From: a virus
DNA length: 64,000 nt
Virus record (IMG/VR): IMGVR_UViG_3300017917_002782
Location: 1-64,000 of that record
Direction: 5' to 3' (one strand)
Part shown: piece by piece, positions 43,109-50,050 of the stretch
Layout: each line of letters opens with the position of its first letter
Numbering within the stretch: position 1 is the stretch's first letter
Position numbers and translations under genes: made by a program
The notes under the pieces: model-generated
Told to the model about the DNA's origin: nothing
What the model saw: the letters and a program-made list of their open reading frames with translations, nothing else
The model's database searches: none

Positions 43109-43528
43109 TGGTGGAGCCGGAGGGATTCGAACCCTCGTGTTGTTCGTTTTATTGTAGATGGACTACACGTTTATTCGATTATTCACAACCGACAAATAAA
43201 TGGTTCCTATTTTGACATCGTTACCAATAACTGTGTCGGGTTCACTTTTACCATTTTCATGGGTTTATAGGTAGTTCCCTGAACGAGACCTTTGTTTCTT
43301 TTCGGGTAGAAACCACACCATAGAGACTTCTGTTCCAAGGTACATGTCCGCCGACCCGTTAGTCACCACCGATTAGGCAGCAACTTTAGAAGTTGCAAGT
43401 AAACCTGCTACTTCCATGTTGTTGTAAACGTTGCCGTTTAAAATTCACCACCATGGATTAAAGTCTTAGATGACATCAGACTACGTGCCCATTTACACTA
43501 ACAACGCCAATCAATTCCATTCGACCCC
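43109..43528 (-). ncRNA. ssrA: tmRNA (transfer-messenger RNA)
   Basis: 420 nt. 5' end GGGGTCG pairs with CGGCTCC of the 3' acceptor, followed by A and encoded CCA. T-arm GAGGGTTCGAATCCCTC at the 3' end. The tag frame starts at GGC (43435) and gives GNVYNNMEVAGLLATSKVAA then TAA (43373); Gly as the first tag codon is typical of Bacteroidetes tmRNA. The tag is about twice the usual length and ends in VAA. A promoter (43548-43578) and GTTCTTTAAAATAT leader lie directly upstream. Rescues stalled ribosomes together with SmpB (49616-50050). Very confident. Confidence 0.95.
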
Positions 43529-44415: not shown

Positions 44416-44862
44416 CTATTTCACATCCAAAAGTTTAGAAATTGCTTCTAACTCCATTTGTGCTTTTAACTCTGGTGAGATAAGAGCATTTAAACGAGCT
44501 TCGATTTCCGCAAGTTCTTTACGTTTTTCTTGGATAGAAATTTGGTTTACACGAGTTTGGAAATCTTCTTTCCACTCTTCAACCATAAAACCTAACCATG
44601 TGAATTTGTAATCCACACCAAGTTCATTAGCAGCAGCCTCTGATTTATCTTTTCTTTCCATTAAGAAAGCATACATCTCAACCAATTTACGAACATCAGT
44701 AATCGTTGCGATTGATGTTCTGTCATGTGCTGAGTTTGCGGAATAACCAAAGTTACCACTTGTTTTCCAACAAGGTCTTTCTGCTTTTTCAATTGCTAAT
44801 TTTTTGTTTTGTACTAAGTCAAATAACTCTTTAACTTTAGCATCTGTTGTTTTTGTTGCCAT
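44416..44862 (-). CDS. Hypothetical coiled-coil protein, 148 aa
   Basis: MATKTTDAKVKELFDLVQNK; helical with conserved-looking AERPCWKTSGNFGYSANSAH (about 27-47) and ANELGVDYKFTWLGFMVEEW, then a coiled coil (EKRKELAEIEARLNALISPE). The pattern resembles a conserved phage protein of unknown role. The nearest recognised upstream feature is the insertion-bearing tRNA; a terminator follows. Confidence 0.75.
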   Translation of the reverse strand: MATKTTDAKVKELFDLVQNKKLAIEKAERPCWKTSGNFGYSANSAHDRTSIATITDVRKLVEMYAFLMERKDKSEAAANELGVDYKFTWLGFMVEEWKEDFQTRVNQISIQEKRKELAEIEARLNALISPELKAQMELEAISKLLDVK

Positions 44863-44921
44863 AATAAATGTTGTTTTTTTTTGTTGTTAATTATGTTGTT
44901 TATTTTTTCCCAGATGGGAAA

Positions 44922-45047
44922 TGGCGGGGAGGGTGGGATTCGAACACCACGACCACGAGGTTAACAGCCTAAGAAGTAACTTAGCTTATAGCCGTATGTA
45001 CAGAAATTAAACCAGTAATACGTGCTCTACCACTGAGCTACCTACCC
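44922..45047 (-). tRNA. tRNA-Asn(GTT)-like RNA with ~50-nt insertion
   Basis: 5' GGGTAGGTAGCTCAGTGGTA then GAGCACGT is a normal acceptor/D arm; 3' part GCTGTTAACC holds a GTT anticodon loop, then T arm with TTCGAAT, acceptor CCTCCCC, G, and encoded CCA. Between D arm and anticodon arm lies a ~50-nt insert containing GGCTAT and TTACTTCTT. Acceptor has one T-C mismatch and the T-stem a bulge. A normal tRNA-Asn exists at 52248, so this copy may have another role. Confidence 0.65.
44971..44993 (-). repeat. GGCTAT-N7-STTACTTCTA element 7 (inside the Asn-like tRNA)
   Basis: 23 nt, GGCTAT then 7 variable bases then GTTACTTCTT. Confidence 0.8.
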
Positions 45048-45096
45048 GAGTATACTGGAAATTGAACGAGTGAGTTTTTGCTTTGTTTTTGTTTTT

Positions 45097-45149
45097 TAGA
45101 AGTAACTCTCATATGTTTCAATATACCATGAAACATACAACTCATAGCC
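45097..45149 (-). repeat. GGCTAT element 6 with inserted hairpin
   Basis: GGCTAT ... GTTACTTCTA separated by 37 nt that contain the perfect stem ATGTTTCA/TGAAACAT. Confidence 0.8.
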
Positions 45150-45235
45150 AGTAAAAGATTTTAAAGATGGTAATTATTTGTCTATAATAAAACCCCTTTT
45201 GAGGGTTCTATAGGATTCGAACCTATTAAACCAAT

Positions 45236-45258
45236 TAGAAGTAAGACAAAATGTAGCC
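45236..45258 (-). repeat. GGCTAC-N7 element 5, followed by a T-arm
   Basis: 23-nt element; 10-25 nt downstream on the minus strand is a T-arm-like ATAGGTTCGAATCCTAT (45210-45226) and AGAAC, which can pair with GTTCT upstream. Confidence 0.78.
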
Positions 45259-45329
45259 ATCAAATATTTTGATATTTAAAGAACTAAAGTAAATGGAAAT
45301 CGTGTCAGTGATGTTTCAGTAAAAGTGAA

Positions 45330-45352
45330 TAGAAGTAACTGAACACATAGCC
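45330..45352 (-). repeat. GGCTAT-N7 element 4
   Basis: 23 nt. Its variable part TGTTCAGT can pair with ACTGAAACA about 25 nt downstream. Confidence 0.8.
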
Positions 45353-45405
45353 ATTAGTATTTTTTAAAGTGGAGATTCCATAACTAATTCAATTTTCAGG
45401 TTTGA

Positions 45406-45428
45406 TAGAAGTAAGTGTATGGATAGCC
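45406..45428 (-). repeat. GGCTAT-N7 element 3
   Basis: 23 nt. CCATACAC can pair with GTTATGG downstream (one bulge). Confidence 0.8.
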
Positions 45429-45479
45429 ACTTAATAAGGTAGACGGAAAGGATATGAGTAATAAACATCCAATTGTTGA

Positions 45480-45502
45480 TAGAAGTAACTACATACATAG
45501 CC
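45480..45502 (-). repeat. GGCTAT-N7 element 2
   Basis: 23 nt. ATGTAGT can pair with ACTCAT downstream (one bulge). Confidence 0.8.
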
Positions 45503-45558
45503 GTCAATAAGTTTATGTGGAGATTGTGTGTCTAACGTTGTATCTGATAGTTGTATGT

Positions 45559-45671
45559 TAGAAGTAAGACTTTTGCACCAATACTTTTGTCAATTCTAAG
45601 ACCCAAAACAGAACCACTCCGTGGTTTGATGTGATGGGTGGTTGACTATCCTCTCAGTGACTCACATAGCC
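45559..45671 (-). repeat. GGCTAT element 1 with 97-nt insertion
   Basis: GGCTAT at 45671-45666 and CTTACTTCTA at 45568-45559, split by a long insertion that can itself fold. First unit of the array, 32 bases after the stop of 45703-47775 and after a GTTCTTTGAAATAT boxA-like leader (45680-45694). Confidence 0.75.
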
Positions 45672-45702
45672 ACATATAATATTTCAAAGAACTGATGGGT
45701 AA

Positions 45703-47775
45703 TTACACACCCATCAATTTTCCTGTCTCTTCATAAGAGTAACAGAAGTCCTCGTACTTGAAGAATGTATCAACATTCTCGTCAAGAGTAACTTGTTTAC
45801 CACGACCTTCTACGTGTAGAAGAACAAGGTCATAAACACTTACCTTTGGTAACTCAGCGTATTGTTGAATTACTTTAATAGTGTTTTTGAAGTCACTTCT
45901 TGCGGTTACGAAACCACTTGAATCAATGTCCAACATGATGTACTCTTTAGTTTCCAAATCAATAATTGCGATTAACGTATTGGTTGATTTAGATTCCAAT
46001 GATTGACAATTTGAAATTGTCTCAGGTAACCATGTCCTGTTTGATTCAGGGTGTTCTCTCTCCATGATACCGAAAGATGTTTCAAGTGTATCCAAACCAC
46101 GACCATTGAAGTTTCTCACGTCAATAACCGCATATTTGTAACCACTCTTCAACGCATCTTGGATATCGATGTCGATGTACTCAGCACAAGGTCCTCTTCT
46201 GTGTCTCACATCACCTGAGTGAACTGATTTACCTACTTTCAAGTTACTGAAAGAAAGTACATCACTTTTTTTCTCACCAACAAAGGTAACACTTAAATCC
46301 AAGTCTTCAGAACCTCTTTCGTCCATCCAATGAACAAATGGTCTAATAACTTTTGCATCAGGGTTATCGAGTGGAACTCTTTGACCTCTGATTGTTGGTT
46401 TAGTTGAGAAGTTCATACTTCTCATGTTGGTTGGTAAAGGAATCTTTTTCAACTCCTCATCAATCCAACAGTTACCCAAAGAATCCATTACTGAAAACTT
46501 ATCTCTAAGTGTTTCAAATAATTTAGAGTGGATTGTTTCCACAATCTCTTTAGGAATTGCTGGTAGATTAGGTAATTCAGTACGTTTTCTTGCCCCTTTA
46601 ATCATAATTGACCTATTTGTTTTAGGTTCAGTACGACCTTCGAAGTGTGAGTAAACTTCAAACAATACCTTGTTTGATGTACCTTTTACCGCCTCACCGA
46701 AGTATTTCATGATAAGTTCAATATCTTTTGGATATGTACGAACCAACCAATCCATTCTTCTTGAGAATTCACCTGGTTTTTGAGATAAAACCCTCAAACC
46801 ATTCTCCAAACCTTTTTTGAATGATTCGTTAAGTAACCCATACCAAGAAGTAACCTTCTCGTTACGAATCTTATTGAACGATTCATAAGATTTAGGGAAT
46901 AATTTCTTATATTCGCCTGGATGTAAAATTTCACCCAAACGAACCCATCTTTGGTCTCTTAAAACCATTTCGCGAGTATCGCAATTGGTTTGTTCAAGTA
47001 AACCTAAGATGTATTTTCTTTCTTTACGAGAGAATTTTTTAAATTTGAATTTCTCTCTTTCAGGGTTTGTACCTTTTGTAGATGACCATCTGTTTAATCT
47101 AATTTCCTTTTCAGGAACTTTAGGTAAAGAGATATCACCACCCGAAAGATGAACCGCAATTCTTAACACATCGGTTGTGGTTTTAACTGGTAACCCTTCA
47201 ATACCCATTGCTGCCAATGTACACAAATTTTCTTTGAATGGAATTGTTCCAGGAAAAACAAGTTTATCACCACTTGATACGAACCACTTAACAATCTCAA
47301 GATCTTGAGGTGTTAATGAAGTGTTGATTGACACCAAATCAGTGAAGATTTTTGAAAACCTCTCTGATGTGCCATACTTAATCAAATTGTATTTGATTTT
47401 TTCGAACTTAATATCCTTTTCGTATGTATGGGTTGATGGTTCCCATTGACCATTACTCCAATAGTGCATGATTGCGTTCATGTACAATTCGAAGTCTGAC
47501 ATCACCATAACTTCTTGTGGGAAGTTTTTATATAATGGTTGGTAATTGCGTTTTCCGCCCATTACATTTTTCAAATGATTCAGAACTTCATCATTGAAGT
47601 TTTGGATAAACGATAAATCTGCTTTGGATAATTCGAAGAAGGCATCTTCGTCTAACATGTATCCCCATTGCATTAAGTGGGATTGTACTGTTGCTACTGC
47701 AATTCTGTTGTCCATACCATCGTTTGGAGGACATACCAAACCTTTTTGAAAGGATACTAAATTTCTTGTTGTCAT
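45703..47775 (-). CDS. Protein with C-terminal TerD-like domain and helical N-terminal region, 690 aa
   Basis: Residues about 1-400 are helical, with KTTTDVLRIAVHLSGGDISL, KKFSRKERKYILGLLEQTN and DQRWVRLGEILHPGEYKKLF, a pattern I have seen in bacterial proteins of unknown role and that faintly resembles Ro60/TROVE repeats. Residues about 500-620 match TerD: GSEDLDLSVTFVGEKKSDVL, SVHSGDVRHRRGPCAEYIDI, ALKSGYKYAVIDVRNFNG. Promoter 47813-47842 with TTGACA-like -33. Directly followed by the GGCTAT RNA array. TerD part fairly sure, N-terminal call weak. Confidence 0.68.
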   Translation of the reverse strand: MTTRNLVSFQKGLVCPPNDGMDNRIAVATVQSHLMQWGYMLDEDAFFELSKADLSFIQNFNDEVLNHLKNVMGGKRNYQPLYKNFPQEVMVMSDFELYMNAIMHYWSNGQWEPSTHTYEKDIKFEKIKYNLIKYGTSERFSKIFTDLVSINTSLTPQDLEIVKWFVSSGDKLVFPGTIPFKENLCTLAAMGIEGLPVKTTTDVLRIAVHLSGGDISLPKVPEKEIRLNRWSSTKGTNPEREKFKFKKFSRKERKYILGLLEQTNCDTREMVLRDQRWVRLGEILHPGEYKKLFPKSYESFNKIRNEKVTSWYGLLNESFKKGLENGLRVLSQKPGEFSRRMDWLVRTYPKDIELIMKYFGEAVKGTSNKVLFEVYSHFEGRTEPKTNRSIMIKGARKRTELPNLPAIPKEIVETIHSKLFETLRDKFSVMDSLGNCWIDEELKKIPLPTNMRSMNFSTKPTIRGQRVPLDNPDAKVIRPFVHWMDERGSEDLDLSVTFVGEKKSDVLSFSNLKVGKSVHSGDVRHRRGPCAEYIDIDIQDALKSGYKYAVIDVRNFNGRGLDTLETSFGIMEREHPESNRTWLPETISNCQSLESKSTNTLIAIIDLETKEYIMLDIDSSGFVTARSDFKNTIKVIQQYAELPKVSVYDLVLLHVEGRGKQVTLDENVDTFFKYEDFCYSYEETGKLMGV

Positions 47776-48389: not shown

Positions 48390-48464
48390 TGGTGGCTCCG
48401 GCGGGAATCGAACCCGCGACTACCAGTTTTAGAGACCATAATGTTACCATTACACTACGGAGCC
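48390..48464 (-). tRNA. tRNA with anticodon CTA (amber suppressor type)
   Basis: 5' GGCTCCG, D arm GTGTAATGGTAACAT, anticodon region ATGGT CTCTAAA ACTGG, T arm CGGGTTCGATTCCCG, acceptor CGGAGCC, A, encoded CCA. With U33 fixed the anticodon is CTA, which reads UAG. The anticodon loop equals that of Trp tRNA (CTCCAAA) with one change. Anticodon stem is weak (two wobble pairs). Confidence 0.75.
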
Positions 48465-48593: not shown

Positions 48594-48947
48594 TTACAAC
48601 ATCTCCAAATTATTTTGAAGATTTTTTTCATAATCTTCTTTTTTGGTTTTTTTCTTAGGTGTATAACCCCTCTTAACTCTTTCTTTTTGAACTCTTTTCT
48701 TTAGACTTCTGTCTTGAAAATAATTCCTCAATTCTTGAGAAGATTCTTCGTAGATCTTTTTAATTTCATCAAAAAGTTTTGCCTTATCTTCATCAGTTAA
48801 TTTGGTTTTTCTTTTTTCTCTAACACAATCCCACCATTCTCTTGAATAGCGTTTGTGTTCGATGCATTCACCTAATAGTTTATGAATCTTGTTCGAGAAA
48901 GATGATTTAATCATCATTGTTGGGTTGTGTTGTGTTGTCTTTTTCAT
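48594..48947 (-). CDS. Hypothetical basic protein, 117 aa
   Basis: MKKTTQHNPTMMIKSSFSNK, then CIEHKRYSREWWDCVREKRK and a very basic C-terminus (LKKRVQKERVKRGYTPKKKT). A nucleic-acid-binding role is suggested by charge only. Starts 2 bases after the stop of the amber-containing gene at 48950. Family not recognised. Confidence 0.7.
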   Translation of the reverse strand: MKKTTQHNPTMMIKSSFSNKIHKLLGECIEHKRYSREWWDCVREKRKTKLTDEDKAKLFDEIKKIYEESSQELRNYFQDRSLKKRVQKERVKRGYTPKKKTKKEDYEKNLQNNLEML

Positions 48948-48949
48948 TT

Positions 48950-49204
48950 TTAAAAAATTTTAGCTGTTATTATGTTATTATTTTCCTCAATCTCCAAATT
49001 TGCTTTGAATTTTATACTCCCTTTGGTATGAGGATTATCAGGAGTTTCTTTTGTTGAGAATCCCACACCCGGTGAGACATCAACGTGATGAACATAATAA
49101 GTGTCGCCCCGACATTTCACAACCCACATAGGAATTGTCGGATCTTCCAAGTGTTTTTTGTTAAAGTGAAAAACGATTTCACATTTTTTGTTAATCTACT
49201 TCAT
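48950..49204 (-). CDS. Hypothetical protein, 84 aa, with in-frame TAG at codon 3
   Basis: ATG at 49204 follows the PTH2 stop by 5 bases. Frame: M K (TAG) I N K K C E I V F H F N K K H then LEDPTIPMWVVKCRGDTYYV, HHVDVSPGVGFSTKETPDNP, ending NNNIITAKIF. The TAG is at 49198-49196. Without readthrough the only downstream start is TTG at 49150. The context TAG ATT AAC AAA is shared with the PTH2 gene. Function unknown. Confidence 0.65.
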
Positions 49205-49209
49205 GATTT

Positions 49210-49563
49210 TTAAAGATTAAATTGTTTATTATATTCCTTTAGAGATAAAGGCAATGATGATGTTAATTTTCTCGTTTCTTCAGTTTCGAGAAAACAAATA
49301 GAAGTTAATTGATTCCCAATATCGGGTTCAATAAAATAAGACACGGGTATTCCGAGTTCTTCTATTCTATAAAGTAATTTTTGTAATTTTTCTTTTGAAT
49401 CAATGGATAAAGAAATAAGAAAATTATTATTCCATTGTTTTGAAAGTTCGGGATGTTCTAAAATGAACTGAGATATTGCATGTCCCGATTGTGCAATTTG
49501 ATACCCGGGATTTAAGTCTTTTCGGGTTACGACTATTAGTTTGTTAATCTATAAATTTTTCAT
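49210..49563 (-). CDS. Peptidyl-tRNA hydrolase PTH2-like, with in-frame TAG at codon 5
   Basis: Frame: M K N L (TAG) then INKLIVVTRKDLNPGYQIAQ, SGHAISQFILEHPELSKQWN, IDSKEKLQKLLYRIEELGIP and VSYFIEPDIGNQLTSICFL. The pattern VxRxDL...AQxxHA...E.GIP.S.F.EPD matches the PTH2 family, which frees tRNA from peptidyl-tRNA. TAG lies at 49549-49551. The promoter (49583-49612) places the mRNA start just before this ATG, and no ATG follows the TAG, so full translation needs amber readthrough. About 117 codons. Confidence 0.8.
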
Positions 49564-49582: not shown

Positions 49583-49612
49583 CAAAGATAAATATTTTTA
49601 TTTAAAAAACAA
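49583..49612 (-). promoter_or_regulatory. Bacteroidetes-type promoter of the PTH2 gene
   Basis: -7 TATCTTTG, exactly 19 bp, -33 TTG (49610-49612). Supports the ATG at 49563 as the true start. Confidence 0.83.
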
Positions 49613-49615
49613 TCT

Positions 49616-50050
49616 TTAAATAAAATTTTTTATTTCTCTTTCAATTTCCCTTTTTTTGATAGTCTCTCTTTTATCGAATTCTTTTTTACCCTTCACCAAT
49701 GCAACCTCAACTTTAATGAATCCCCTTTCACTTAAAAAAATACGATAAGGTATAATCGAGTATCCTTTAATTAAATCGTTTTTTAATTTCAAGAGTTCAC
49801 GTTTTTTAAGTAATAGTTTTCTATCTCTGTTGGGTTCGTGTGAGTATGGTGAACCATCACTATTAATATTAATTCCTTTAACAAATAATTCGGTACCATT
49901 AAAGAAACAAAAAGAATCGGTCATAGATGCATTTCCGTTTCTAATTGATTTAACCTCACTACCGGTTAATTTAATACCAGAAATTTCGGTTCGAATAAAT
50001 GAATACTCGAACCTAGATTTCCTGTTAACAATTTCAATTTTAGATTTCAT
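49616..50050 (-). CDS. smpB: SmpB, tmRNA-binding protein
   Basis: 144 aa, full length. KIEIVNRKSRFEYSFIRTEI, SGIKLTGSEVKSIRNGNASM, TDSFCFFNGTELFVKGININ, HEPNRDRKLLLKKRELLKLK, then IIPYRIFLSERGFIKVEVAL, VKGKKEFDKRETIKKREIER: the canonical SmpB sequence including the C-terminal KGKKxxDKRxxxKxRE motif that enters the mRNA channel. Binds tmRNA and delivers it to stalled ribosomes. Encoded next to an RNase H-like gene (TAATG overlap) in the same genome as its tmRNA. Confidence 0.95.
   Translation of the reverse strand: MKSKIEIVNRKSRFEYSFIRTEISGIKLTGSEVKSIRNGNASMTDSFCFFNGTELFVKGININSDGSPYSHEPNRDRKLLLKKRELLKLKNDLIKGYSIIPYRIFLSERGFIKVEVALVKGKKEFDKRETIKKREIEREIKNFI

Follow-up and report, generated by a model that had tools for sequence, protein, structure and literature searches.

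How two neighbouring phage genes can be expressed when each carries an in-frame amber codon only a few codons after its ATG is the question raised by IMG/VR virus record IMGVR_UViG_3300017917_002782, analysed here over a window of 64 kb (positions 1 to 64,000, the whole stretch of DNA studied) out of a 65,021-base viral contig. The two genes, a PTH2-like gene and an undescribed gene here called X, lie on the minus strand beside a gene for a transfer RNA (tRNA) with the amber-reading anticodon CUA. A reading of the letters alone had suggested programmed UAG readthrough tied to this tRNA, and the comparative analysis supports that suggestion through the conservation of the TAG, its linkage to the tRNA and the ordinary use of TAG elsewhere in the genome, all of which are properties of the sequence.

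Two reading frames with a conserved early TAG

The PTH2-like gene (49210..49563, minus strand) opens with ATG (49563-49561) AAA AAT TTA TAG ATT AAC AAA and runs for 112 codons after the TAG to a TAA, so that the TAG (49549..49551), the proposed gating codon, is codon 5 of the frame MKNL@INKLIVVTRKDL..., where @ marks the TAG. Gene X (48950..49204, minus strand) opens with ATG (49204-49202) AAG TAG ATT AAC AAA, has its proposed gating TAG (49196..49198) as codon 3 (MK@INKKCEIVFHFNKKHLEDP...) and continues for 81 codons to a TAA. Neither gene is an ordinary table 11 frame open from its ATG, and the positions first assigned to both frames proved right when they were re-read from the sequence. Among three phages the ratio of nonsynonymous to synonymous change (dN/dS) after the TAG is 0.005-0.010 / 0.25-0.37 for X and 0.044-0.10 / 0.30-0.49 for PTH2, and because this reflects strong purifying selection, both downstream frames behave as translated sequence. 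The sequence-only reading had also stated that no ATG follows either TAG, which holds for PTH2 and fails for X, where residue 23, which belongs to the invariant core (HFNKKHLEDPTIPMW), is an in-frame ATG. The 12-mer TAGATTAACAAA that the two genes had been noticed to share occurs in exactly two copies in the window, and matches to it with one mismatch are at chance level there; its ATTAAC part is not universal among relatives, and because that part varies the 12-mer was set aside as a candidate RNA signal.

A profile of X recovered 261 IMG/VR relatives, of which 80 were fetched, and all site counts given here are of distinct DNA contexts. The early TAG is present at 47 distinct X sites and 24 distinct PTH2 sites. 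Most fetched X relatives open M-x-TAG-I, and all close relatives and most distant ones retain the early TAG, far above chance. In both genes of the close relatives L002, L003 and L004 the position of the TAG is unchanged, and each of the three has a CUA tRNA nearby; among close relatives the codons before the TAG differ in PTH2 (MKNL@, MRKN@, MKRH@), with X reading MK@. The early TAG of PTH2 recurs in five huge-phage records (462-735 kb) and in three cultured phages the same arrangement is found in one gene or the other: in PTH2 of Tenacibaculum phage pT24 and Sinorhizobium phage Phosso, and in an unannotated X of Rhizobium phage RHph_I1_18, where it adjoins an annotated tRNA-Pyl(cta). On a PTH2 tree whose deep branches are weak, the TAG label is clustered, requiring 4 changes where shuffled labels need 10 on average. 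The 735 kb phage LR756501 carries a further in-frame TAG within the core of its PTH2 (EFP@IYEQW), with neighbouring genes in the standard code and two CUA tRNAs about 2.4 kb from this two-TAG gene (locus L240). A sequencing error, which had been thought less likely, is excluded by this search of related phages, since the same early TAG is conserved in dozens of independent, divergent genomes. As a separate observation, locus L021 holds two early-TAG PTH2-like genes together with two CUA tRNAs.

In the fetched X and small-PTH2 families the early stop is always TAG, a rule that applies to these families and not to the wider PTH2 branch of Phosso and Agrobacterium phage Atu_ph07, and the flanking codons vary. 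The base that follows the early TAG is A at 65 and G at 6 of the 71 sites, and never T or C (for the 47 X sites alone, A 45, G 2, T 0, C 0), whereas TAG terminators in ten contigs are followed by T in 40 cases, A in 41, C in 23 and G in 20; as the 71 sites are related, the bias carries no formal probability. The features conserved in relatives are the TAG itself and the purine after it.

The early TAG is absent from X in 14 groups, one of which (L022) is cut at a contig end. Leaving L022 aside, 12 of 13 groups have an early TAG in the PTH2-like gene next to X (L021, L023, L024, L025, L026, L027, L028/29, L031, L033, L034, L041 and L051), and no PTH2 was found within the remaining locus, L081. 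Phages of this kind would therefore usually keep at least one locked gene.

The CUA tRNA and its linkage to the two genes

The tRNA gene (48390..48464, minus strand; anticodon CTA in the DNA) had been called from the letters and is real by both ARAGORN and Rfam (tRNA, 59.4 bits); it has an encoded CCA end, a G1-C72 pair and A73, and is kept beside X and PTH2 in relatives. Of 61 non-redundant groups, 50 have a CUA tRNA no more than about 5 kb from X, the median distance being 721 bp. This count joins 46 of 57 groups, formed by collapsing near-identical X sequences, with four loci that the X-body motif missed and that were added by hand (L064, L069, L071 and L075, all with TAG and CUA tRNA); the tRNAs of L061, L075 and L039 were detected with our own arm-matching scan. 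In 20 of the 53 tRNA-bearing loci the CUA tRNA is the sole tRNA found, and in the 518 kb phage behind L063 it lies 9.7 kb from X. The window, Phosso, pT24 and RHph_I1_18 each hold the early TAG and the matching CUA tRNA in the same genome.

Between Phosso and Atu_ph07 the stop codon and the anticodon change together. Both carry the same PTH2 gene, which is of the GK type. In Phosso it opens ATG AAG TAT TAG, and a CUA tRNA lies about 4.4 kb upstream. In Atu_ph07 it opens ATG ATT GGC GAA CAC TTT TGA ATT, and no ATG, GTG or TTG was found between the early TGA and the conserved first strand. Atu_ph07 was published with one suppressor tRNA, of anticodon UCA (PMC6102473), and among the 29 tRNAs detected in 450 of its 490 kb the sole stop-reading one is indeed TCA (430713-430787). 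That the stop codon matches the suppressor tRNA in both phages gives strong support to decoding, as a correspondence between sequences, and falls short of proof.

Several observations weigh against decoding of the UAG by the phage's own tRNA. The co-switch in Atu_ph07 is a single case, and in the N-terminal extension of its PTH2, from the TGA to the PTH2 core, conservation is poor. No CTA tRNA was found in the TAG-bearing fragments G024, G027, G039, G044 and G015, nor in the 320 kb searched of G030 (330 kb, with X at a contig end), and in G011 (353 kb) a tRNA with anticodon TTA (188241-188313) stands in place of one with CTA. The 635 kb record LR745206 yielded no clear CTA tRNA, its one candidate being an irregular tRNA-like sequence whose loop reads TTCTAAC, and LR756504 and LR756502 were searched for tRNAs with a loose pattern alone. 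The identity of the CUA tRNAs by nearest neighbour is mixed, Trp-like being commonest, which does not settle the charging synthetase.

The irregular sequence in LR745206 (L247-L278, around 507337-507420) was missed by ARAGORN and has an apparent 4-bp anticodon stem below the TTCTAAC loop; a similar one occurs in LR756502 (L291). It is possibly a divergent amber tRNA. Pyrrolysine decoding was considered and rejected, since no PylS match exceeded the cut-off in the 12 phage records searched, as one did in one of 14 control genomes; the result applies to a PylS encoded by the phage. Theta ribozymes, which are reported beside suppressor tRNAs, and other regulatory Rfam elements gave no convincing match near the tRNA of the window. 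In another locus, L098, two TTA-anticodon (ochre) tRNAs lie beside a PTH2 without an early stop.

Probable decoding of the UAG and rival accounts

Conservation of the TAG, the purine context, the tRNA linkage and the UGA/UCA swap together argue that the UAG is read as sense, and the UAG of PTH2 and X is very probably translated and read by the phage's CUA tRNA. Translation would start at the upstream ATG, in a normal start region, and meet the UAG after a few codons, where the CUA tRNA would compete with host release factor 1 (RF1), the presumed competitor since 10 records yielded no release factor encoded by a phage. Most ribosomes would be expected to stop at this point until the phage tRNA has been made and charged, after which the protein could be completed; output of PTH2 and X would then depend on the balance of charged tRNA and RF1, because it is the CUA tRNA that would read the UAG. 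A single codon would thus gate one or two genes, while TAG keeps its normal role as a stop in the rest of the phage genome.

As to its purpose, the gate may act as a sensor that switches PTH2 and X on when stop-codon suppression rises, a proposal to which we give an even chance. If normal stops were read through, nonstop and drop-off or peptidyl-tRNA problems would arise, which PTH2 would relieve together with neighbouring SmpB (49616..50050, minus strand, directly upstream of PTH2; a ribosome rescue gene, Pfam SmpB E=8.8e-43) and its rescue partner, the transfer-messenger RNA (tmRNA; 43109..43528, minus strand; ARAGORN, Rfam RF00023 70.2 bits). The sensor purpose is preferred because suppression would cause these problems and because SmpB and tmRNA are encoded in the same region.

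A different purpose would follow if readthrough were constitutive, the tRNA being always efficient and the UAG serving, for example, to make the genes useless to competitors or hosts without the tRNA. This account shares the decoding step with the one given above, so that their probabilities overlap, and taken for itself it is rather unlikely. The data do fit it without regulation, as does the bias after the UAG, a purine at that position favouring suppression; the choice of translation-related genes would be left unexplained.

If the UAG is instead a true stop, the protein could start at the AUU directly after it, as in infC, with the ATG-TAG minicistron as a leader that stops or feeds ribosomes. 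The codon after the TAG is ATT at 54 of the 71 distinct sites, and the natural N-terminus of some PTH2 proteins would fall near that point. Elsewhere, however, the codon is ATA (5 sites), GTA (4), ATC or GTT (2 each) or AAG, AGA, ACA or ACT (1 each), and in the X of RHph_I1_18 it is AAC. This variation argues against initiation there, since GTA, GTT, AAC, AAG, AGA, ACA and ACT are not usual starts, and members of this kind led us to reject an AUU start as a general rule. A stop-and-restart leader would moreover tolerate TAA or TGA, whereas the X and small-PTH2 families show TAG only; Atu_ph07 pairs its TGA with an anti-UGA tRNA; LR756501 has its second TAG within the PTH2 core; and in phages with Shine-Dalgarno sites the spacing suits the upstream ATG (for example GAGGAAAGG-9 nt-ATG in RHph_I1_18). 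Taken together, these points make a start at the AUU improbable.

Genome-wide reassignment of UAG (code 15), with PTH2 and X being the first genes to use it, is more improbable again. It would account for the suppressor tRNA and for the rarity of TAG as a terminator, which ends 3-16% of open reading frames (ORFs) in the phage contigs, but TAG still terminates normal genes, among them 10 of the 63 non-overlapping ORFs of at least 100 amino acids in the window, in keeping with the first impression that UAG is not simply reassigned. A scan of ten phage contigs (about 2 Mb) for in-frame TAGs followed by conserved, clean coding sequence, with TAA and TGA as controls, returned PTH2 and X as the only recurrent genes; three further matches look like RNA or tRNA-region noise, and of the controls TGA yielded 2 pairs and TAA 4, among which no early-stop gene family recurred. 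An earlier unfiltered scan had been dominated by antisense and RNA-region noise, and a per-genome count of early-stop frames made without homology gave TAA 32, TAG 23 and TGA 19, in which single cases mean little. Nor is the TAG scattered: very divergent phages have it at a single position close to the start. Many in-frame TAGs in structural and lysis genes, expected under code 15, were not found, and a CUA-anticodon tRNA, likewise expected, was; reassignment was accordingly rejected on terminator usage and on the conserved in-frame scan. One genome, G005, has a possible further early-TAG gene at 467446-468072 (MA@LPVGYGKNQYKYYVNDK...).

A role for the UAG as the start codon, with the CUA tRNA acting as a special initiator, is scarcely credible, for although engineered amber initiator tRNAs function in E. 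coli and the ordinary ATG of the X homologue L041 aligns with the TAG position of the others, the CUA tRNAs have none of the usual initiator features, an in-frame ATG stands just upstream of the TAG at every counted site, and the ribosome-site spacing suits that ATG and not the TAG.

Products, neighbouring genes and known systems

The PTH2-like protein passes the curated Pfam cut-off narrowly (PTH2, PF01981, E=2.3e-5, 25 bits against 23) and matches phrog_1866 at E=2.8e-14, and the small PTH2 aligns to a standard phage PTH2 at 31%. The lysine of the PTH2 GK motif is catalytic. The motif is present in 9 standard copies and the lysine is retained in Phosso and Atu_ph07, whereas the TAG-type small copies tallied, although just within the same family, do not keep it (GY, GA, GV and others), so that their hydrolase activity is uncertain. 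Protein X has no Pfam or PHROG family match. It is predicted to be compact and all-beta (AlphaFold2 predicted local distance difference test 90.6, predicted template modelling score 0.77). At E<=0.001 a fold search with the model of X found nothing in the PDB and three matches in a viral library, which offer no functional lead; residues 22-46 weakly resemble a WW domain in sequence (best E=0.0075), a similarity that the fold search does not support. In most of L037-L083 X is extended at its C-terminus by about 100 residues, the tail often being very acidic, and in Phosso and Atu_ph07 the X core forms the C-terminus of a longer protein. An X homologue without TAG lies in a bacterial tRNA array of Paenibacillus sp. 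FSL H7-0326 (L136), a locus in which no CUA tRNA was found.

By ARAGORN the window holds 28 tRNA genes and one tmRNA. The minus-strand series runs SmpB, PTH2-like gene, gene X, a small ORF, tRNA-Cys and the tRNA with CUA anticodon. The TATCTTTG box seen at 49583..49590 (minus strand), about 19 nucleotides upstream of the PTH2 ATG, is of the Bacteroidota -7 promoter type, whose consensus is TAnnTTTG; it stands at the same place in L002, L003 and L004, and the initial remark that this promoter sets the ATG at the right distance is confirmed. The small basic ORF between X and the tRNAs (48594..48947, minus strand) has no early TAG and no family match in Pfam or PHROG, and in close relatives similar sequence also comes after X. 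Elsewhere in the window, a 123-nucleotide Rfam tRNA match above threshold at 44925-45047 may be an insert-bearing or odd tRNA, and the stretch 44862-45703, with 45238-45645 singled out, is conserved, apparently non-coding and nearly identical in G002.

The closest known relations differ in where the stop lies and how it is passed. For phages with recoded stop codons (code 15), suppressor tRNAs have been put forward as a means of controlling late genes (Borges et al. 2022, cited in PMC10879173; PMC9523058). Those phages likewise encode a CUA-anticodon suppressor tRNA that reads UAG in their own genes, but their TAGs are scattered through structural and lysis genes, which the standard code breaks, whereas here a single fixed, start-proximal UAG is found in one or two genes beside the tRNA. 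The RF2 gene (prfB) has an in-frame UGA and an autoregulatory recoding by frameshifting, controlled by its own product. An early stop in a translation-factor gene that senses decoding capacity would be common to both, by analogy; RF2 frameshifts under its own product, whereas readthrough by a dedicated tRNA is proposed here. For the amber tRNAs of XacN1 (PMC5852040) and Summit (PMC9022506) the authors state that no target was found, and some suppressor tRNAs of Zeta crAss-like phages have been called apparently inactive (PMC12386605, 2025). These phages resemble the present ones in pairing an amber tRNA with otherwise standard use of UAG, but the studies sought readthrough past gene ends or recoded genes, and the TAG described here is at the gene start; the PTH gene of XacN1 has no early TAG. 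Such a target is easily missed, because a stop near the gene start makes annotation drop the gene or start it too late: the X of RHph_I1_18 is unannotated, and the PTH2 genes of pT24, Phosso and Atu_ph07 are annotated from internal starts. A full-text literature search found no description of the arrangement, although most subscription papers and bioRxiv preprints were outside its scope, so that an earlier description is possible.

In sum, it is an evenly balanced proposition that these loci represent a widespread and previously unrecognised device, in which a dedicated stop-reading tRNA and one or two stop-locked genes would form a self-contained suppression sensor. Stop codon and anticodon would co-evolve in it (UAG with CUA, UGA with UCA), and its products would manage translation, for example by rescuing drop-off peptidyl-tRNA or tuning RF1. 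The analysis supplies specific candidate gene targets for phage suppressor tRNAs, together with cultured phages that have listed hosts, and it brings to light X, a conserved protein family that neither Pfam nor PHROGs contains; a frame that opens with a stop may be the reason for this absence.
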